Virus record (IMG/VR): IMGVR_UViG_3300045009_000458
Span: 1-20,327 of that record
Strand: one strand, 5' to 3'
Length of the DNA: 20,327 nt
Origin: a virus
Below, piece after piece: positions 151 to 17,733 of the stretch (position 1 is its first letter; the number at the start of each line of letters is the position of its first letter). The translations under genes were made by a program, and so were the position numbers. The notes under the pieces were generated by a model. The model worked only from the letters and a program-made list of their open reading frames with translations. It did no database searches and was not told the DNA's origin.

Positions 151-732
151 TTAGTTCCTCAAAGTTTTGTAATAATTTAAAAGTAGTTCTAACTCTTCAA
201 CTGTAGCATCTCTTTTTAAAATGTTTGCTCTTCTACTGACAACTGTAACATTTCCTTTTATATACCCTTTAGAACTGTCTATTCTATCAACACTGGGAGC
301 GCACATCCAAGTTTGCTTATCTTCTCTTTTCAATTCAAATCCAAATACGGGACATTTTTCTGGAATGATTATATCTTCCAAATCAATAGAAAATTCTTTT
401 CCAGTTCTTTTGCATCTTGACTTAATATTTTTATAAAGAAGTTTTGCAGCATCGACTTTCCAATCTCTATTTAATTTTTCAGTTTGTCTTATTTTTGTGG
501 AGCATTTTTTACAGATGCCTTTAGTACCAGAATCAACATTCCATTTTTGAATTAGACTAAATTTATTGAGATTTAGAGATTGATTGCACTCTCCACAAAC
601 TTTATATCTATTTGGATTTTCTTCTCGGTGTTTCATACCAAACTCTCTTGCATTATATACATTCATACATTTGCAAGAGCAAAACTTTTTTTGTCTTTTG
701 CCGAGAATAGAATTACATTCCAAACAATACAT
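151..732 (-). CDS. HNH homing endonuclease with zinc-binding cysteines
   Basis: A 193-residue protein. The N-terminal half is cysteine-rich: C3/C6 with C18-C20-C22, then CGEC (46-49) and CKKC (74-77), which looks like two zinc ribbons or knuckles. The C-terminal half carries CPVFGFEL (127-134), SVDRIDSSKGY (147-157) and GNVTVVSRRAN (160-170). This is the signature of phage HNH endonucleases of the 'SLDRIDSSKGYxxGNVxxVSxRAN' type, where the D of SVDRID stands near the first catalytic position and the two Asn complete the motif. Such genes are free-standing homing endonucleases that cut the matching locus of phages lacking them. It lies between an unknown gene and the partial gene at the left edge, with its own late-promoter-like motif at 757-764. 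The Shine-Dalgarno is poor. The family is fairly sure; the target site is unknown. Confidence 0.85.
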   Translation of the reverse strand: MYCLECNSILGKRQKKFCSCKCMNVYNAREFGMKHREENPNRYKVCGECNQSLNLNKFSLIQKWNVDSGTKGICKKCSTKIRQTEKLNRDWKVDAAKLLYKNIKSRCKRTGKEFSIDLEDIIIPEKCPVFGFELKREDKQTWMCAPSVDRIDSSKGYIKGNVTVVSRRANILKRDATVEELELLLNYYKTLRN

Positions 733-2341: not shown

Positions 2342-3442
2342 TCAGTTTGATTCAGATTCGTCAATAGGAAGTTTAAAATCCGTATCAATCTTATCGTAGA
2401 GTTCCAAGAAAGATTGCTTGGTCTCATCATCAAAACGATTTACACAAACTTGTATTGCCTTTGCCTTATCATTAAAGATACTATAGGCACGAAGAATGTG
2501 AACGAGACGACGTGTACTGATGATTTCTTCAATACCACCATCATAAAAAGTCTTTCGAATCACATCTCCCCAATCTACAAGTCTCTTACAAAAATCACGA
2601 TCTTCAATACCTAATTCAAGAGCAACACCTTCTAAAATCTTTTGCTCAATTGTAGGAGCAGGATAAGACTGCTCAAAGGTTACAGGAAAACGCTCTAAAA
2701 AGGCTTCGTTGAGCACGTTAGTTCCAATAAACCTGCCATCGTCTGAACCTTTGCCTTTAGTATTGGCAGTTGCAAAGACGTTAAACCCAGTTGTTGGTCT
2801 AACGAATTTTCCAATTTTCTTAAGAAAAACTCCTTTTCCTTCCAAGACAGATTGTAAACATAAAATTTTGTTAGAGGCAAGGTCGATCTCGTCAAGGAGC
2901 AATATAGCACCTCGTTGTAATGCTTCAATGACTGGGCCGTTGTGCCATACAGTTTCACCATTAATGAGACGAAAACCCCCAATAAGATCATCCTCGTCAG
3001 TTTCTACTGTAATATTTACACGAATCAATTCTCTGTTCAGTTGAGCACATGCCTGCTCTACACTAAATGTTTTACCATTACCCGAAAGACCCGTAATGAA
3101 CGTAGGATAAAAAAGATTGGATTGAATAATTTTTTTAATATCATTGAAGTTACCAAACTTGACGAAAGTATCATCTTTATCGGGAATAAGATTTTGTTCC
3201 ACAGCAGGAAGAGCAGAGGGAGCAGAAAAACTGCGCTCAATTTCTTGAACCTTTTTTGATGTTACTTCCAAATTCCACTTACCACGTCCAACCTTAAAAT
3301 TTTCCAATCGTTTAGTCACAGTTGGATATGAGATATTTTTAGATTTACAATAACCACGAACATCCGCAGCAATAAATTCTTTACCAAAAGTATTTTTAAG
3401 ATCTGAAAGAATTTGATCGTCTGTCATTTGAATGCTTTTCAT
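2342..3442 (-). CDS. cobS: CobS-like AAA+ ATPase (MoxR/cobaltochelatase small-subunit type)
   Basis: A 366-residue protein. Residues 1-60 form a small N-terminal domain (SDLKNTFGKEFIAADVRGYC, VTKRLENFKVGRGKW). The AAA+ core has Walker A GLSGNGKT (118-125), DDLIGGFRL (151-159), Walker B LLLDEID (181-187), sensor FATANT (223-228) and LERF (249-252) near the expected arginine finger. This matches CobS and related MoxR-class ATPases. In aerobic B12 synthesis CobS works with CobT and CobN to insert cobalt into the corrin ring, and cobS-like genes are known in marine T4-like phages. No CobN/ChlH large subunit is present here, but a CobT-like protein is encoded three genes upstream (4432-6597), so it may remodel another target. 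A TATAAT promoter and terminator lie just upstream. Confidence 0.85.
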   Translation of the reverse strand: MKSIQMTDDQILSDLKNTFGKEFIAADVRGYCKSKNISYPTVTKRLENFKVGRGKWNLEVTSKKVQEIERSFSAPSALPAVEQNLIPDKDDTFVKFGNFNDIKKIIQSNLFYPTFITGLSGNGKTFSVEQACAQLNRELIRVNITVETDEDDLIGGFRLINGETVWHNGPVIEALQRGAILLLDEIDLASNKILCLQSVLEGKGVFLKKIGKFVRPTTGFNVFATANTKGKGSDDGRFIGTNVLNEAFLERFPVTFEQSYPAPTIEQKILEGVALELGIEDRDFCKRLVDWGDVIRKTFYDGGIEEIISTRRLVHILRAYSIFNDKAKAIQVCVNRFDDETKQSFLELYDKIDTDFKLPIDESESN

Positions 3443-3472
3443 TTGTGAGAAAAAGTGTTTTCAACTGAATTC

Positions 3473-3501
3473 ATTATAAAACAAAAAAGGGGTTGCCAAA
3501 A
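3473..3501 (-). promoter_or_regulatory. Sigma70-type promoter for the CobS-like gene
   Basis: On the minus strand a perfect -10 TATAAT (3478-3473) lies 31 bases before the CobS-like start. A TTGGCA (-35-like, one mismatch, at 3499-3494) stands 15 bases upstream, a short spacer. The -35 falls inside the terminator hairpin of the preceding gene. The -10 is strong and the -35 assignment tentative. Confidence 0.5.
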
Positions 3502-3509
3502 CCCCCCTT
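3483..3509 (-). terminator. Rho-independent terminator after the 61-aa gene
   Basis: Minus strand GGGGTT / TTGGC / AACCCC gives a 6-bp GC-rich stem with a 5-base loop (3505-3489), followed by TTTTTTG. It starts a few bases after the stop of the 61-residue gene (3513), and G-U and A-U pairs can lengthen the stem. It separates the late-type gene at 3701-4408 from the CobS-like gene. Confidence 0.8.
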
Positions 3510-3512
3510 GTG

Positions 3513-3698
3513 TCAGTTTACAAACTGGGTTTTTAGTTTTTCAAAGTGCTCTCTGCTTACAATTTTACCCTTATATCCAGGATAAAACTGCTTAACAATT
3601 GCTGGAATACCCATTGCAGTAATCGCACTGTTACAAATTACACAGACTTCTTGTGTATCGTGATTGACTACATGCTCAAGTGGAAATTTAGTTTTCAT
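3513..3698 (-). CDS. Small hypothetical protein with CxxC
   Basis: A 61-residue protein, MKTKFPLEHVVNHD..., with one CVIC pair (19-22) and a basic C-terminal half (YKGKIVSREHFEKLK). One CxxC is not enough for a zinc site in a monomer, though an intermolecular site is possible. It starts 2 bases after the stop of the capsid-targeted protein gene and ends just before a strong terminator, so it is the last gene of that transcription unit. I recognise no family. That it is a real gene rests on tight spacing, the flanking terminator and an unbroken frame. Confidence 0.65.
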   Translation of the reverse strand: MKTKFPLEHVVNHDTQEVCVICNSAITAMGIPAIVKQFYPGYKGKIVSREHFEKLKTQFVN

Positions 3699-3700
3699 AA

Positions 3701-4408
3701 TTAATCCTCAACAGTAAAAGTTTTGTTTTTAACTTTTGTATCAAACTCACCAGTTCTACCTGGTTTCATACTTCCTATTTTAACATTCTTTCCCTCTCCT
3801 GGCCAAGAAGTCTTTGAAGTTCCTTTAAGAGTTGAACTTCCACTTGGTTTGCGTTGAATCAAAACAGAATCTTGATCATACTTTTTACCCAGTTTTTCAA
3901 TAACCTTTTTAAACTTTCTCTTACCCATTTTTCCAGGAGTAATAACGTGAGATTTCTCTCCCACTTTTTTCTCTTGTGGAGTTCCTGGATTTTCTGTATA
4001 TCTGCCAGCAACCTTTGTAGGGCCAGGAAGACCAGCACCTCTTACATCACGCTCCAGTTGTCTTGAACGTTCTTTGTTTTCTGCTTTTGATTTATCACCA
4101 CGTTGAGCAGACATAATTGCCATACCACCCCTCTCTGACTTACTCATAATACGAGCAAGAGAAGTTTCACTTAAATCAACTTCTTCTTTTCTTGTTCTCT
4201 CTGCTTCCCTACGTTTAGCAAATTGCATATAGGTTTCACCTGGTTTCAGTCTATTACTATAATCAGGAATTGTTTGTGCTGAAGTGCTTTGTCCTCTGTC
4301 TTCACGAGCTCTCATTTGAGGGCCCTTACCAGGAAGTGTTCTGTCTATTTTTGAATCTGGATGCCACCAATCACCTGCTTCAATCATAAACTCTTGAAAT
4401 GTTTTCAT
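3701..4408 (-). CDS. Candidate internal head protein with T4-type capsid-targeting sequence
   Basis: A 235-residue protein from the ATG at 4408; a GTG 4 codons upstream is possible but less likely. The N-terminus MKTFQEFMIEA nearly matches the capsid-targeting sequence MKTYQEFIAEA of the T4 internal proteins (IPI, IPIII), which sends proteins into the prohead and is cut by gp21 after Glu10. Here MIE|A would be the equivalent site. The rest is strongly basic and low in hydrophobics, with many Lys, Arg, Gly, Ser and Thr (TSAQTIPDYSNRLKPGETY near 42-60, KMGKRKFKKVIEKLGKKYD near 160-178, terminal EFDTKVKNKTFTVED), fitting a DNA-associated internal protein. A late-promoter variant (CTAAATA) lies 21 bases upstream. 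T4 internal proteins are injected with the DNA and can act on host defences; the function here is unknown. Confidence 0.7.
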   Translation of the reverse strand: MKTFQEFMIEAGDWWHPDSKIDRTLPGKGPQMRAREDRGQSTSAQTIPDYSNRLKPGETYMQFAKRREAERTRKEEVDLSETSLARIMSKSERGGMAIMSAQRGDKSKAENKERSRQLERDVRGAGLPGPTKVAGRYTENPGTPQEKKVGEKSHVITPGKMGKRKFKKVIEKLGKKYDQDSVLIQRKPSGSSTLKGTSKTSWPGEGKNVKIGSMKPGRTGEFDTKVKNKTFTVED

Positions 4409-4428
4409 ATTAGCAGACACTTTTTAAA

Positions 4429-4435
4429 TATTTAG
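4429..4435 (-). promoter_or_regulatory. Late-promoter variant CTAAATA upstream of the capsid-targeted protein
   Basis: CTAAATA on the minus strand differs from the ATAAATA core by one base and ends 21 bases before the ATG at 4408, the spacing of the exact motifs elsewhere. It overlaps the stop codon of the VWA gene and sits in a TTTAAATATTT element seen at other gene junctions. Confidence 0.4.
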
Positions 4436-6597
4436 ACAACAAGAGAAATAAACTCTCCAAGAACTTTCTTGTTAAGTTTTTTTGTTTTTAATGACTTTGC
4501 AAAAGCAGATTTAATTTGTGCCTTTGTTGCATCATCAGAAACTTCAAATTCTGAATTTTGTGCCAGAGAACTTGAGGAAAGACCAAAATAAACATCATAA
4601 GCAGAATTTAAAATATTAATGCTTCTATGTTTTTTCCAGTAATTCATAATTTTATCATACTCTGGTGAAGATTGTTTGTAATATAAACTTACAAATCGAA
4701 ATGTATCTCTACTTTGAAGAATACGAATACCTACAAAGTTAACAGAAGGAAAATTATCCTTTAAATTATAAAGTAAAGTCTCTGTAAGAGAATTATAATT
4801 TTGCTCTATTTTATATGTTGTTCCAATTTTACGATCTCGAAGAAAAGTACGAGTTGGTTTGATTCCACAAACTCCCAGATAATCTTCACTACCACGTTTT
4901 ACCTGATGGTGATAAGGTAGAGAATTTGCCTCACCATCAGTAAGAATTACGCACTGAACTTTTTGAAGTTTATTGTCTTTTTGAAATTTGGGAAGAATTT
5001 GATGTAGAGAAATCAAACTTTCATTTAATGGAGTTCCAGAAAGAGAAAGAGAAGATGGAACTTGATATTGACAAAAATATGGTGAGGCAATACAAGTTGC
5101 AAGTCTCCAAATATTAATCATTTGACTCTCTAATAATCTCGAATTCACTTTACTAGTCAAAATATTCATTAGAGAAAATTCATCGCTAACAAAAACCATA
5201 CCTTCTTTTTTCTGATAGTGAGAGTCCAAATATTTTTTAGATTCCAATCGAGGGTTTCTCCATTCATTCGTAAAAGCATACACCTCAAATGGAATTGATA
5301 TTTTTTTACAAAACCAAATTAAATTATAAAGTTGCTTACAAGTATCTTTTAATACCGTCTGCATTGAGCCACTCCAATCCAAAATGAATATCAATCCGTG
5401 ATTCTTACCATCAGGTGTTATATTAACTTTTTTAAAAAGATTCTCATTATATTTGTAAGTATGAAGACGAGAGGTATCAAGAACACCTGTACGAGAAGTT
5501 AATGTACGTGAATATGAATCTGCTGCCTTGCGACACTCAAATTCTTTTACAAGATAATTAACTTCTTTTTGAGCAGAATTTTTAAATTCTTTAAAGGATT
5601 TGTCAGTTTCTTCGTAAATATCATACTTTGGTAATGAATTCATTTTTAGCCATTCGTTCTTCAGAATTTGTTGATTTACAAAATATTCATCAATAAATTG
5701 ATGTATTTCTGAATTTTTTGTAATAACCGTATCTAAATTAACCTTTGGAATTTCAACATATACATTTTCACTTCCCATAAGATTTACAAGATTTTCGATT
5801 TTTTGGCGAAGTGATTCTGCTGTACGAACTTCGGGTTCATCAGAAGAATTAGCAGGGACATTGCTTACTGATTCTCCTTCGATTCTTTCAAATTGCTCCA
5901 AAGTCTCAGAGTTTATTAATTGTGATTGAACATTTTCTATTTCTTCGTCTTCAGATTGTTGTTGAACATTTTGCTCACTTGAATTCGAAGAATTTTCATC
6001 ACCTTGTTGAGAATGAGAATCTAATTCAACGACATTTTGTTTTTTCTCTTTTTCATTCTTACAATAATTATAAAGTTTTTCAGCAGCAATTAACACTTCA
6101 GAAAAAGTTTCACACGATGCAATAAGGCTTAGGATTTCATTTTCATCAGAGGTAAAATTTAAAGGTAAAAAATTTCCAATCTTGAAGTAAAGATTTGCAC
6201 GATCAGCAAGATTAAAAGTAGTTACATCTTCATTCTTTATTTCAAAAAAGTCTTGTTCATTAAGCTCTTTATATCCATTATAAAATGTTTTTGCAAGTCC
6301 CGCATACTTGCGTTTTATTAATTTTTCAATGCGAACATCTTCAACAATATTTACAAACTGATGTGGAATTTCAGTCTTCTCACTCCAGTCTATGTCATCT
6401 GTAAAAAGAGCATGTCCAACTTCATGTCCCACTAATAAATCATATATACCATTGCTTGCTTTCTCCCATAAGGGTAAAGTCAATACACGAGTATGAACAT
6501 TAAAGCAAGCAGTAGAAACTTTTTTATGCTCTACCAATAAGTCTTCAGTAGCAAGCAATTTAGCAAGTTGTGACTTAATTTCGTGATTAACTGGCAT
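4432..6597 (-). CDS. CobT-like VWA protein with N-terminal HEXXH peptidase-like domain
   Basis: A 721-residue protein in three parts. Residues 1-150 contain HEVGH (58-62), the zinc-metallopeptidase HEXXH motif, followed by NIVEDVRIE (83-91), which could supply the third ligand as in gluzincins. Residues 180-265 are an acidic Gln/Ser/Glu-rich linker with no fold apparent. The C-terminal part has GVLDTSRLHTY (371-381), like the 'GxLDTxRL' of CobT, then a VWA domain with MIDAS motif DWSGS (407-411), GTPLNES (521-527) and ILTDGE (551-556). CobT is the VWA partner of the CobS AAA+ ATPase, and such an ATPase is encoded at 2342-3442. No signal peptide is seen. Peptidase activity is inferred from the motif only. 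The gene follows gp46 after 67 bases. Confidence 0.85.
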   Translation of the reverse strand: MPVNHEIKSQLAKLLATEDLLVEHKKVSTACFNVHTRVLTLPLWEKASNGIYDLLVGHEVGHALFTDDIDWSEKTEIPHQFVNIVEDVRIEKLIKRKYAGLAKTFYNGYKELNEQDFFEIKNEDVTTFNLADRANLYFKIGNFLPLNFTSDENEILSLIASCETFSEVLIAAEKLYNYCKNEKEKKQNVVELDSHSQQGDENSSNSSEQNVQQQSEDEEIENVQSQLINSETLEQFERIEGESVSNVPANSSDEPEVRTAESLRQKIENLVNLMGSENVYVEIPKVNLDTVITKNSEIHQFIDEYFVNQQILKNEWLKMNSLPKYDIYEETDKSFKEFKNSAQKEVNYLVKEFECRKAADSYSRTLTSRTGVLDTSRLHTYKYNENLFKKVNITPDGKNHGLIFILDWSGSMQTVLKDTCKQLYNLIWFCKKISIPFEVYAFTNEWRNPRLESKKYLDSHYQKKEGMVFVSDEFSLMNILTSKVNSRLLESQMINIWRLATCIASPYFCQYQVPSSLSLSGTPLNESLISLHQILPKFQKDNKLQKVQCVILTDGEANSLPYHHQVKRGSEDYLGVCGIKPTRTFLRDRKIGTTYKIEQNYNSLTETLLYNLKDNFPSVNFVGIRILQSRDTFRFVSLYYKQSSPEYDKIMNYWKKHRSINILNSAYDVYFGLSSSSLAQNSEFEVSDDATKAQIKSAFAKSLKTKKLNKKVLGEFISLVV

Positions 6598-13217: not shown

Positions 13218-14648
13218 TCACATTAGATTTTTTACAGCAACTCTTCTATAGTAACGGTTAGCATTCACTAGAAGTCTTCCAAGTCCTTGAGTAGTGCCTT
13301 CAGCAAATGGATTTGCAACAAGACCATAGCGAGTCTTAAATCCAATTTTTGGTTGGAATGAATTCTCACCAACGGCACGAACCATTTGAAGAGGAACATA
13401 AGGGCAATAGAACAGTCCAGCATCATAAGGTGAAGAACCCTTGTAACCAACAATATAATATTGATTACCAGGAGTAGCATTACCTGAGGTTAGGTTTGCT
13501 GCATATGGATCAATGTAAACACGATACTTACCTTGAAGAACACCAGCAAAGGTGTTACCAGTATCGTCAACATTGAGATTGGCATTGAGTGCAGGAGTGT
13601 AGTCAAGAACACCAGCCATAGTCAGTGCTGAAGCAACGTCAGCAGAGCACATGATGATATTACCCTTTCCACGACGAGTTCTTTGTGCGATTGCATTAGC
13701 ATCACGCTCAATTTGGAATAGAAGTCCTTTGAACTTCTCAACTGACCAACGACCATTGGAATCAACATCAAGGTCAAATATACCTGCAGTAGCAACGTTT
13801 TGAACAGCACCTTGCTCAGCTACCTTATAAATGGTTCTGATAACCTCACGATTGATTTCAGCAAGAATCTCTGTTGAGAGAATATTTGCTAATTCTGCTT
13901 CGGCATTTAGACCGTGAATTGCCTTGAGATCTTGAGCAAGTTCTAATGAATACTCAGCTTTCAGTGCTCTGGATTTTGCAGTTACAGTGACTTTCTCGAT
14001 TGAAAATGCCATCTGATTGAAGGCATCACTACCAGTACCATCAAGGTTTTCTGCATCTCCCGTTGCCATTCCCTGACCTACGTTGTAGGCAGTGGAAGTT
14101 GCAGTGCCAACAGGGTTAAGAACTGAAGGGTTGGTTCCACTTTGAGCAGTAGTACCAATACCAGCAGCAGCATCACTGAATCCTGCAGTTTCATCAAGAC
14201 CTGCATCTTGACCAGAGAATGCAGAATCTACTTCGTTGTAGAATGCTTCAGTACCACTCTGATTGATATAACGTGAGCGCATTGCAAAAATAAGTCCAGT
14301 AGGACCACTCATTGGTTGTACGCCAGCAAGATCATAAGCAACCAGATTAGGCATTGAACGTCTAATTAATGAAATTAGAACGGGATCGAAACCAGCAGTA
14401 GGACCAGCAGCAGCTGCACTGCCACCGAATCCTCCACTAGCACCAGCAGCATTACCGCTGTTGGTTGGAGATTCCATCAACATTGACAATGAACCATTGT
14501 CGAATGAAGACTGCTCTCTTAAAAATCTTTCTTGATTTTCTAACAGGACAGCAGTTACTGCTCTACGATGCGAATCTTTGATTGATTCAAGACCCTCATA
14601 GTTGAGTAGAGGAGCCCACTTTTCCTGCAGATGTTCTGATTGAAACAT
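13218..14648 (-). CDS. 23: gp23 major capsid protein precursor
   Basis: A 476-residue protein, shorter than T4 gp23 (521) but typical of marine T4-like phages. LIRRSMPNLVAYDLAGVQPMSGPTGLIFAM (split over 92-121) matches the T4 block VRRAIPNLIAFDICGVQPMNSPTGQVFAL. SRALKAEYSLELAQDLKAIHGL near 235-256 and the C-terminal KIGFKTRYGLVANPFAEG are also diagnostic. The N-terminal ~60 residues (helical, charged) form the delta domain removed by gp21 during maturation. LMES (57-60) offers a plausible cut after Glu59, just before a Gly/Ala-rich stretch (66-83). gp23 forms the hexamers of the head; no separate gp24 vertex gene is present here. A good Shine-Dalgarno (AAAGGT) precedes the ATG, and a strong terminator follows. 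Confidence 0.97.
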   Translation of the reverse strand: MFQSEHLQEKWAPLLNYEGLESIKDSHRRAVTAVLLENQERFLREQSSFDNGSLSMLMESPTNSGNAAGASGGFGGSAAAAGPTAGFDPVLISLIRRSMPNLVAYDLAGVQPMSGPTGLIFAMRSRYINQSGTEAFYNEVDSAFSGQDAGLDETAGFSDAAAGIGTTAQSGTNPSVLNPVGTATSTAYNVGQGMATGDAENLDGTGSDAFNQMAFSIEKVTVTAKSRALKAEYSLELAQDLKAIHGLNAEAELANILSTEILAEINREVIRTIYKVAEQGAVQNVATAGIFDLDVDSNGRWSVEKFKGLLFQIERDANAIAQRTRRGKGNIIMCSADVASALTMAGVLDYTPALNANLNVDDTGNTFAGVLQGKYRVYIDPYAANLTSGNATPGNQYYIVGYKGSSPYDAGLFYCPYVPLQMVRAVGENSFQPKIGFKTRYGLVANPFAEGTTQGLGRLLVNANRYYRRVAVKNLM

Positions 14649-15907: not shown

Positions 15908-16501
15908 TTAAATATTTGCAAGAAAATTAAATTCATATCTTTTTTTAAAAGTTTGCTTAGAAACATTAAAATACTTGTAAGCATCCTTCATACATCCAAA
16001 TTTTATACCATTACATATAATTGATTTTGAATTTGGATTTTTTGACCCCTCATTTCTTTTTGATGAATTATCAATATATTTTTTATTTATTTCATAATTT
16101 GGTTTATGTGAATTTGATATTCCTATTTTGTTTTTATGTTCTTCAGTTAAAACTTTTCCAATATTTTTTAGTCTTAAGTGTTCCTTTTGGGATTCTGATA
16201 ATTTAGAACCAGTTCTATCTGGTGGAATTATTTCTTTATTTGTAAGAAATTCTTTATAATAATCAATAAAATAAGATTCTAATTTTAAAGAATCAGAATT
16301 TGATAAATTTTCAATAATTTTATAAATTATTGTTTCAAATCCTAAATTTCTGATATTATCAATATATTTTAATTTTTCTTGATTATAATTTGCGTGACCT
16401 TTCAAATGCTTAAAGCATCTATCTTTTTTCCCCTTTCCAATATAAAAAGGAATCCTATTTATTGGATCAACTAGAGCATACACATAATATTCTTCATTCA
16501 T
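15908..16501 (-). CDS. GIY-YIG homing endonuclease between gp21 and gp22
   Basis: A 197-residue protein. The catalytic GIY-YIG domain is at the N-terminus: YVYAL (6-10) and YIGKGKKDRCFKH (20-32) supply the two GIY/YIG strands, R28 and H32, and LKLESYFIDYY supplies the catalytic Glu (E76). Residues 96-133 (GSKLSESQKEHLRLKN, GKVLTEEHKNKIGISN) look like two NUMOD3-type DNA-binding repeats. The C-terminus (SIICNGIKFGCMKDAYKYFNVSKQTFKKR) resembles a NUMOD1 helix-turn-helix. This is the arrangement of free-standing phage GIY-YIG endonucleases such as the T4 Seg proteins. The start overlaps the gp21 stop (ATGA). The gene is more A+T-rich than its neighbours, consistent with a mobile insertion. Confidence 0.9.
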   Translation of the reverse strand: MNEEYYVYALVDPINRIPFYIGKGKKDRCFKHLKGHANYNQEKLKYIDNIRNLGFETIIYKIIENLSNSDSLKLESYFIDYYKEFLTNKEIIPPDRTGSKLSESQKEHLRLKNIGKVLTEEHKNKIGISNSHKPNYEINKKYIDNSSKRNEGSKNPNSKSIICNGIKFGCMKDAYKYFNVSKQTFKKRYEFNFLANI

Positions 16502-17148
16502 AACATACTTATAAATCTTTCAAAGTGTTGAATCTTCCTCTCCTCTGTTAATTTCTTTCTTCTGACATCCTTCTCTATAATATTTTTAATTGACTCCGCA
16601 ATCCAGACTTTTTTATTGGAATCATAAATCCACTCCTTTCCTTCCATAATTCCTTGAACAAATGCATCAGGTGCAGAGGGATCTGCAACAATATCAGCAG
16701 CAGTTGCTAACATAAAATCTTCACCAACTTCATTATATCCATCACGATTTCTTGTAACAGAACCTATTCCACGAGAGGAAACACCAAGAGTTACACCAGA
16801 ATTCAAAAGTGCCTCGGCAATTTTACCCATTGGAGTGGGAAGAATTTGTGCCTTACCGATAAAATTATTTCCTTCTGGAAAAAGAGAAATGATTTTATGA
16901 GAAACACGATCAAGATTTACTGTAGGTCCATCTGGATGACCAAGTTCTCCAAGAGCACGACCTTTATTGACATATTGTTCATTATATCTTTTAACTTCTC
17001 TTTCCACAATCTGTCTTCGATATAATCTATTATTACGATTAGGTTGTTCAGTTTGAAGAAAAGGGCCTTGAATAAACAAAGTCTTTTTTCCATTCACTGT
17101 TTCAGTAAGAACCTCTACGGATTCAACTTCTTCGGTAATAAGCTTCAT
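16498..17148 (-). CDS. 21: gp21 prohead core protease
   Basis: A 216-residue protein from the ATG at 17148 (MKLITEEVESVEVL), close to T4 gp21 (212). The 21 codons upstream overlap the preceding gene and are not needed. Conserved sites are GELGHPDGPTVNLDRVSH (67-84; His71 is the likely catalytic His) and LGVSSRGIG (121-129; Ser124/125 the nucleophile), with AADIVADPSAPDAFV near 151-165. gp21 is a serine protease with a herpesvirus-assemblin-like fold that cleaves head proteins after Glu (consensus hydrophobic-x-Glu) and then itself. Likely substrates here are gp22, gp23, the gp67-like protein and the candidate internal protein at 3701-4408. It begins 1 base after the 184-aa protein's stop. Confidence 0.93.
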   Translation of the reverse strand: MKLITEEVESVEVLTETVNGKKTLFIQGPFLQTEQPNRNNRLYRRQIVEREVKRYNEQYVNKGRALGELGHPDGPTVNLDRVSHKIISLFPEGNNFIGKAQILPTPMGKIAEALLNSGVTLGVSSRGIGSVTRNRDGYNEVGEDFMLATAADIVADPSAPDAFVQGIMEGKEWIYDSNKKVWIAESIKNIIEKDVRRKKLTEERKIQHFERFISML

Positions 17149-17149
17149 T

Positions 17150-17704
17150 TTATGCTTGATTAGTAATTTGTACTTGTTGATAATATAAGACTCCAGTTGA
17201 TCCAGTAGCACCTACAGCACCAAGTTTTTGTGAAACTCTTAATGTTGCATCAGCAGAGGAAAATGCAGTCACAATACCACTTGAGTTATAAGATACAACA
17301 ATTCGACTCTGATGATATCCATTTATACCACTACTTGTATTCACAGATGTAACTGCCTGATGAGTAAAATCATAATAAGACTGACCAGATGCACTTAAAG
17401 TTACATAATCACCAATACCAAATGGAGATTGTGTTCCCTCTGCAAAATCTATGATTGTAGTTGTTCCTGTTGTAATACCAACAACTCTATTTGATGCCTT
17501 GGTGAGAGCAAGAGTTACTGATTCACCAGAAGGAACATAATAATCTAAAGAAGATGCTGTTGGACTTGATCCGATTGCAATATGTGCCGCACCACCAACG
17601 GCAACAACTCTCAAAGTATCTGATTGTACTGAAAATGGAGATGATGTTGTTGCGGTACCTGTAAACGAAAACGATGAACCTGCTCCAACTGGTCTATGCG
17701 TCAT
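17150..17704 (-). CDS. Beta-rich putative virion structural / decoration protein
   Basis: A 184-residue protein from the ATG at 17704 (MTHRPVGAGSSFSF). The frame opens 7 codons earlier with GTG, but that would leave almost no leader after the late promoter at 17734-17741. The sequence is rich in Ser, Thr, Gly and Val and almost free of Cys and Trp. It contains LRVVAVGGAAHIAIGSSPTASS, YYVPSGESVTLAL, RVVGITTGTTTIIDFAEG and the C-terminal GAVGATGSTGVLYYQQVQI. Short alternating strands suggest a beta sandwich of the kind found in capsid decoration or fibre proteins. T4 has gp68 near this place, but this protein does not look like it. Its position within the head genes and its own late promoter support a virion protein; no specific role is known to me. 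Confidence 0.75.
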   Translation of the reverse strand: MTHRPVGAGSSFSFTGTATTSSPFSVQSDTLRVVAVGGAAHIAIGSSPTASSLDYYVPSGESVTLALTKASNRVVGITTGTTTIIDFAEGTQSPFGIGDYVTLSASGQSYYDFTHQAVTSVNTSSGINGYHQSRIVVSYNSSGIVTAFSSADATLRVSQKLGAVGATGSTGVLYYQQVQITNQA

Positions 17705-17733
17705 TATTTTTTTTTTATAATACACCTATCGAT

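Follow-up and report, generated by a model that had tools for sequence, protein, structure and literature searches.

We identified, in a stretch of T4-like phage DNA, a gene that joins a T4-type capsid-targeting sequence (CTS) to an S-adenosylmethionine (SAM) lyase domain. We consider it likely that its product is made late, packaged in the phage head, trimmed by the prohead protease and injected into the host as a SAM lyase. Because a packing tag and a SAM-destroying enzyme are found in one gene, the virus probably injects the enzyme together with its DNA, disarming the host at once.

Results

The gene lies between CobT-like and CobS-like genes of a cyanophage-like virus

The window, by which we mean the whole stretch of DNA analysed (20,327 nucleotides), represents 20 kb of T4-like phage DNA, and the phage is known from this metagenomic contig alone. 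The major capsid protein of the window is 80-86% identical to its counterparts in Synechococcus and Prochlorococcus phages such as S-B05, S-B43, P-TIM68 and S-SM2. Copies of the SAM lyase gene are 99% identical at locus L002 and 87% identical at loci L003-L005. A first-pass annotation of this DNA had placed the gene beside a CobS/CobT-like pair and had reported a gp21 protease in the same window; both descriptions agree with our analysis, in which the two Cob-like genes flank the SAM lyase ORF and the protease is recognized as a Peptidase_S77 (Table 1). A PADLOC search gave no match.

What separates the CobT-like from the CobS-like gene (window 3443-4431) varies among phages: it is the SAM lyase gene in the window, PurM and a SAM lyase in P-TIM68, and a SAM-dependent methyltransferase in S-SCSM1. 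Elsewhere in the window, a GIY-YIG homing-type endonuclease gene (15908..16501) is found between the gp21 and gp22 genes, and the gene of a 191-aa phrog_682 protein (17150..17725) between the gp67-like and gp21 genes, while 151..732 encodes an endonuclease VII/HNH-like protein (phrog_3322, phrog_1035) whose N-terminus resembles a zinc ribbon.

Table 1. Features of the SAM lyase gene and its surroundings in the window (an arrow marks a predicted or likely cleavage site).
Feature	Position	Strand	Remarks
CTS-tagged SAM lyase CDS	3701..4408	-	235 aa + stop; ATG start; from ORF list and sequence
Capsid-targeting sequence, residues 1-10 (MKTFQEFMIE)	4379..4408	-	predicted gp21 cut E10↓A11 follows
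Swappable middle module, residues 11-81 (WWHPD...RLKPGETYMQFAKRR)	4166..4378	-	also inside cyanophage gp114-like proteins
Glu81 codon, second predicted gp21-type site LSE81↓T82	4166..4168	-	
SAM lyase domain, residues 82-235	3704..4165	-	Pfam stretch 98-221
Gly135-x-Tyr137, equivalents of Svi3-3 Gly56 and Tyr58	3998..4006	-	invariant
Glu151, equivalent of catalytic Svi3-3 Glu69 / T3 SAMase Glu68	3956..3958	-	invariant
Gln179, equivalent of Svi3-3 Gln104	3872..3874	-	invariant
Late-promoter-like CTAAATA	4429..4435	-	20 nt upstream of ATG; promoter-like sequence
CobT-like protein (phrog_459), upstream neighbour	4432..6597	-	E=2.7e-259
CobS/MoxR-like AAA ATPase, downstream neighbour	2342..3442	-	
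gp21-like prohead protease, Peptidase_S77	16498..17148	-	PF03420 E=9.2e-34; ATG start MKLITEEVES
Major capsid protein gp23	13218..14648	-	likely maturation site LME59↓S60, position-matched to T4 FLTE↓A

The protein body is a predicted SAM lyase

Residues 98-221 matched the Pfam family S-AdoMet_lyase (PF23780, E=7.2e-15, 55.5 bits against a cut-off of 28). When a profile of 27 homologues was compared with the PDB, only T3 SAMase (7ock, E=0.027) and Svi3-3 (6zm9, E=0.28) fell below E=1. The first-pass annotation had also suggested structure prediction, and this recovered the SAM-lyase (PII-like ferredoxin) fold from models of limited confidence: with the AlphaFold model of the lyase domain (mean pLDDT 63), Foldseek ranks 1-7 in the PDB were all SAM lyases (best TM 0.65-0.69; 8bb1, 6zm9, 7ock and 6znb matched at probability 1.00), and the whole-protein model, although poor (pLDDT 51), ranked the same folds first. 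In Svi3-3, SAM is bound by Gly56, Tyr58, the catalytic Glu69 and Gln104 (PMC7877911). The equivalent residues G135, Y137, E151 and Q179 were invariant in the initial 27 and then in 46 homologues, down to 28% identity. Taken together, sequence and models place the protein body in the phage SAM lyase family, with the corresponding predicted activity. It shares with T3 SAMase and Svi3-3 the domain family, the PII-like fold and the catalytic Gly/Tyr/Glu/Gln set. The likely action is therefore on host SAM rather than direct inhibition of a nuclease as by T4 internal protein IPI, and the earlier suggestion that the protein could act on host nucleases gives way to SAM as the likely target.

The protein might be packaged and cut in the same way and have SAM-AMP or another SAM derivative as its target, which would make it an injected type III anti-CRISPR. 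One phage enzyme that shares the fold and has an additional N-terminal domain is a SAM-AMP lyase that leaves SAM itself intact (PMC12255297), and the two activities have the catalytic Glu and Gln in common. The AcrIIIB4 candidate of this kind (DAN18478) is likewise phage-encoded and resembles the window protein in fold, catalytic Glu and the presence of an extra N-terminal region; it differs in acting on SAM-AMP, and the text available on it reports no packaging. We nevertheless regard such a target as unlikely, given that Gly135 and Tyr137 match the SAM-specific Svi3-3 set too and that the structural matches are the T3 and Svi3-3 SAM lyases.

The N-terminus resembles the leader of T4 internal proteins

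The protein starts with MKTFQEFMIEA at the ATG of its ORF, as originally described. The first-pass annotation had compared this start with MKTYQEFIAEA, given as the start of both IPI and IPIII of T4, and had counted agreement at eight of 11 positions. The count holds against IPII and IPIII, the two proteins that bear MKTYQEFIAEA in the T4 record. The attribution was correct for IPIII and wrong for IPI, which begins with MKTFKEFTSTTTPVSTITEA (MKTFKEFTST...ITEA) and has a leader of 19 residues, with 6 matches to the first 7 residues of the window protein; the comparison with T4 thus stands without the IPI claim.

In T4 IPIII, a leader of 10 residues suffices (Mullaney and Black, as summarised in PMC9026906). 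According to the same summary, residues 4 and 7 govern targeting whereas 8 and 10 govern processing, and Asp at position 10 stops processing with targeting kept (PMC9026906). The window protein is aromatic at both targeting positions (F4 and F7), and its gp21-type site reads M8-I9-E10↓A11, with Met at P3 compared to Leu or Ile in T4 sites. The predicted trimming at Glu10 fits this sequence. A GTG start four codons upstream (MSAN-MKTF) was considered and rejected: a transcript initiated at the late box would have this GTG right at its 5' end, and some relatives do not retain the upstream codons.

Leader positions with a known function are conserved among SAM-lyase relatives

We assembled 61 distinct complete SAM-lyase N-termini, most of them found via the C-terminal domain. 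Homologues without the motif had been named beforehand as grounds for abandoning the idea of a targeting leader; the leader was present on 59 of the 61, the canonical form being absent from two. Among the 59 leaders, Phe or Tyr at position 4 and Phe at position 7 were found in all, Glu10 in 57 and a conserved hydrophobic residue at position 8; P3 is mostly Val, Met or Ile, and there is free variation at positions 5, 6 and 9. The conserved positions coincide exactly with those that T4 IPIII requires for targeting and cutting. In the subgroup with Asp10, the sequence runs on as IQE↓SSLSR, so that a gp21-type site seems to be restored three residues downstream. Conservation of the leader at the DNA level was ruled out, because codons at conserved positions vary synonymously (Phe7: TTT 29, TTC 17) and it is therefore the protein that is conserved. 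Peptidase_S77 co-occurrence was seen on 7 of 15 contigs and on all four contigs of at least 170 kb, a result that is only partly informative since most contigs are fragments. By homology, the assignment of the leader as a genuine capsid-targeting sequence is strongly supported as far as packaging is concerned.

Leader-bearing proteins of other phages are found in virions

The SAM lyase homologue of cyanophage S-CREM2, ORF6 (WNL50925, 'S-adenosyl methionine hydrolase'), is 50.9% identical over residues 79-235 and starts with the CTS-like MKDFDSFLEEF. Mass spectrometry of CsCl-purified virions detected it through 19 unique peptides, at 26% coverage (PMC10665884 Table 3), and the part of that study available to us suggests encapsulation and names no targeting sequence. 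Unlike the window protein, ORF6 has its enzyme domain almost directly after the leader and carries an extra C-terminal region of about 240 residues. A scan of the S-CREM2 genome for starts of the form M[KR]x[FYLM]xx[FYLM]xx[ED] matched four annotated genes (ORF6, 13, 14 and 154); the products of all four are in the virion, where 52 of the 219 proteins are found (hypergeometric P=0.003). Two more S-CREM2 virion proteins were noticed afterwards and not counted: the Cas9-like ORF12, with RFASFMAEA after 17 residues, and ORF136, which starts with MQTFSMFFSED. In phage S-SCSM1, the NMNAT virion protein starts with MKSFLQFLKEA, and a second leader-bearing protein (ORF30, 107 aa) is not among the reported virion proteins, so that one of two leader-bearing proteins is in this virion. 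A cut N-terminus does not appear in the published proteomes. Packaging of the window protein, which the first-pass annotation had deduced from the T4 likeness, is strongly supported as a prediction by homology, with the leader positions conserved, and by the published virion proteome of S-CREM2, whose homologue carries a variant leader.

The late-promoter variant reported upstream of the gene was also recovered, as CTAAATA (Table 1). TAAATA occurs within 80 nt upstream of 57 of the 61 family genes, most commonly 21-27 nt from the start, compared to 35 of 740 other ORFs on the same contigs. A late-type box would also suit a lyase that works late in the producing cell, draining SAM or keeping progeny DNA unmethylated, with the leader sequestering surplus enzyme or the copies in the head being passengers; known phage SAMases do work inside the infected cell. 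T3 SAMase, however, is described as the first viral protein expressed (PMC8406200), and late synthesis alone therefore makes poor sense as an anti-restriction measure. As the functional CTS positions are kept in the leader and the S-CREM2 homologue is in virions, we find this purely intracellular role quite unlikely.

The body was found to be basic and hydrophilic, as stated in the first-pass annotation (pI 10.0, net charge +19, GRAVY -1.18). T4 internal proteins are similarly basic, and the protein might accordingly be a structural or DNA-binding internal head protein with a real CTS, its lyase fold serving as a non-catalytic neutraliser of DNA charge. Such a role seems very unlikely when the four catalytic positions do not vary across the 46 sequences, and a packaged, active SAM lyase is preferred.

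A swappable middle module is bounded by a second gp21-type site

The segments that precede the lyase domain differ among relatives, from none to about 280 residues. At the site before the enzyme domain, all 71 distinct contexts have Glu, with Ile, Leu, Val or Met at P3 and Thr, Ser or Gly at P1'. In relatives of the P-TIM68 type, the 10-residue leader abuts this second site directly (MKTYKEFMQE↓SSLSR). The same gp21-type pattern is seen in T4 gp23 (FLTE↓A) and gp24 (LRE↓S) and in the gp23 of the window (LME↓S); the gp21-type sites of the window were assigned by position. The start of the middle module also follows a common boundary, [IVM]xE↓[ARS]GDxWHPD, in 17 of 17 distinct contexts, interiors of gp114-like proteins included. 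These modules therefore seem to be joined at prohead-protease sites, and a second gp21 cut probably falls after Glu81, judging from the sequence pattern.

The gp114-like proteins with the WWHPD module are encoded beside terminase genes. In S-WAM1 and S-SZBM1 such a protein has a SAM-lyase domain at its C-terminal end, with the Pfam match demonstrated for that of S-WAM1. We considered the occurrence of the middle module (residues 5-63) inside gp114-like proteins as an argument against a CTS and rejected it, because the module follows a gp21-type site there as well, with the leader absent or internal.

In a close relative, the SAM lyase gene is split at the orthologous locus (L197, 5781 downwards, minus strand). 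The first ORF comprises the CTS and WHPD module and stops after 75 aa; the second starts with a separate leader (MKTFQEFMVEC) and continues into a highly divergent lyase-like body that scores 14.7 bits with PF23780, under the cut-off.

The leader heads many unrelated proteins

A motif search across phage proteomes had been proposed in the first-pass annotation. With the loose pattern MKx[FY]xx[FY][FLIMV]xE we obtained 38 matches in 25 records, mostly marine T4-like phages, against 0 for the reversed control, and 22 against 0 in a further 10 records; within T4 itself the pattern picks out IPII, IPIII and gene 61.1. A strict DNA pattern was found in at least 119 IMG/VR stretches, its codon-permuted control in none, and chance origin of the leader is ruled out by these control patterns. 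S-PM2 and CP220 gave no match to the ATG-AAR pattern, which indicates that the tag is not universal. The 83 leader ORFs of at least 45 aa formed 37 clusters with unrelated bodies, and the strict leader MKTFx[EQ]F[hyd]xEA (IMG/VR loci L175-L254) heads at least 37 unrelated bodies. Pfam matches of these bodies above cut-off were to glucosaminidase, double-psi beta-barrel, cytidylyltransferase-like and GNAT families, with a weak match to PARP-like ADP-ribosyltransferase. That the likeness of the leader is accidental, or marks a lineage-specific start unrelated to targeting, could be argued from the mere 11 residues involved and from the common descent of the homologues. It is extremely improbable given the same leader on so many unrelated bodies, the empty controls, and the leader proteins in the virions of S-CREM2 (4/4) and S-SCSM1 (1/2).

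Several further observations concern the leader-bearing proteins. Bodies at L175-L254 also include HNH-like and kinase-like ones, and the bodies at these loci as a whole are candidate packaged effectors of many kinds. In NMNAT-like proteins the leader is followed by a second small module, GLxGDGHGxWxDxxGxxVAKTExGxLxFY, which we located in S-CREM2 ORF12 and ORF14 and at L103, L106, L111, L119-L121 and L244; among the virion proteins of S-CREM2, the Cas9-like and kinase-like ones have it as well. T4 gp61.1 (AF158101 18966-19130; 54 aa, hypothetical) has a CTS-like start, MKTFKEFIKED, and adjoins gene 61.2 (adfA); judging by this start, gp61.1 may belong to the minor internal proteins of T4 itself. 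On the 243-kb IMG/VR contig 3300042560_001323, six leader starts form two groups with three members each, an arrangement that recalls the tandem ipII-ipIII pair of T4.

Discussion

We propose that the protein would be synthesized late, from the late promoter, and that residues 1-10 would attach it to the scaffold core while the head assembles. The gp21-like protease may then cut after Glu10 and probably also after Glu81, freeing a basic 154-residue lyase that would stay in the head alongside the DNA. At infection the enzyme would be ejected with the DNA and would convert host SAM to methylthioadenosine and homoserine lactone ahead of phage gene expression, which may weaken defences that need SAM (type I/III restriction, BREX-like) or reset the methylation state of the host in some other way. 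The phage would most plausibly gain protection from SAM-dependent restriction or from BREX-type systems, as T3 does through its SAMase, here before genes are expressed. A small cell is assumed to hold a few tens of thousands of SAM molecules. A T4 head takes up 20-200 CTS fusions (PMC9026906), and the turnover of Svi3-3 is about 9.5 per second (PMC7877911); as a rough estimate, 200 lyase molecules could consume some 2,000 SAM per second and empty such a cell in about half a minute.

The window protein shares with T4 IPII and IPIII (and IPI) the MKT[FY]xEF[hydrophobic]xE↓A type of leader, a basic body and a gp21-type protease in the same genome, and as in T4 one leader stands ahead of variable bodies. 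In contrast to the T4 internal proteins, its body belongs to a known enzyme family unrelated to them, the enzyme is preceded by another gp21-type site, the middle module is exchanged from relative to relative, and the phage is marine and cyanophage-like. Whereas the cell makes T3 SAMase ahead of all other phage proteins, the window lyase appears to be late, capsid-tagged and probably delivered ready-made. The start of T4 Alt appears to differ from the IP-type leader. Alt, an ADP-ribosyltransferase, is alike in being an enzyme within a T4-type head that is trimmed by gp21 (PMC5694885), although the enzyme itself differs.

Apart from a T4 review, our literature search did not find the capsid-targeting sequence tied to cyanophages. 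Marine T4-like phages may use the IP leader as a general cargo tag for interchangeable injected enzymes, with modular cargo, gp21 sites between the modules and a pro-enzyme cut to its active form in the head; NMN/cytidylyltransferase-like, ADP-ribosyltransferase-like, kinase-like, glucosaminidase and acetyltransferase proteins would be further cargo. We give this broader proposal even chances. If it holds, the separation of cargo modules by gp21 sites would mean that the prohead protease makes the active enzyme inside the head.

In T4, ready-made counter-defence proteins are carried in the phage head, and the known examples are a few coliphage proteins. Our findings link the tag used for delivery in T4 with one defined enzyme across a large group of marine phages. 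The tag may explain why virion proteomes of cyanophages include a SAM lyase, an NMNAT and a kinase. As a simple rule, aromatic residues at positions 4 and 7 together with Glu at 10 would predict further injected effectors. Removal of SAM as the DNA enters would precede the early genes on which T3 depends.
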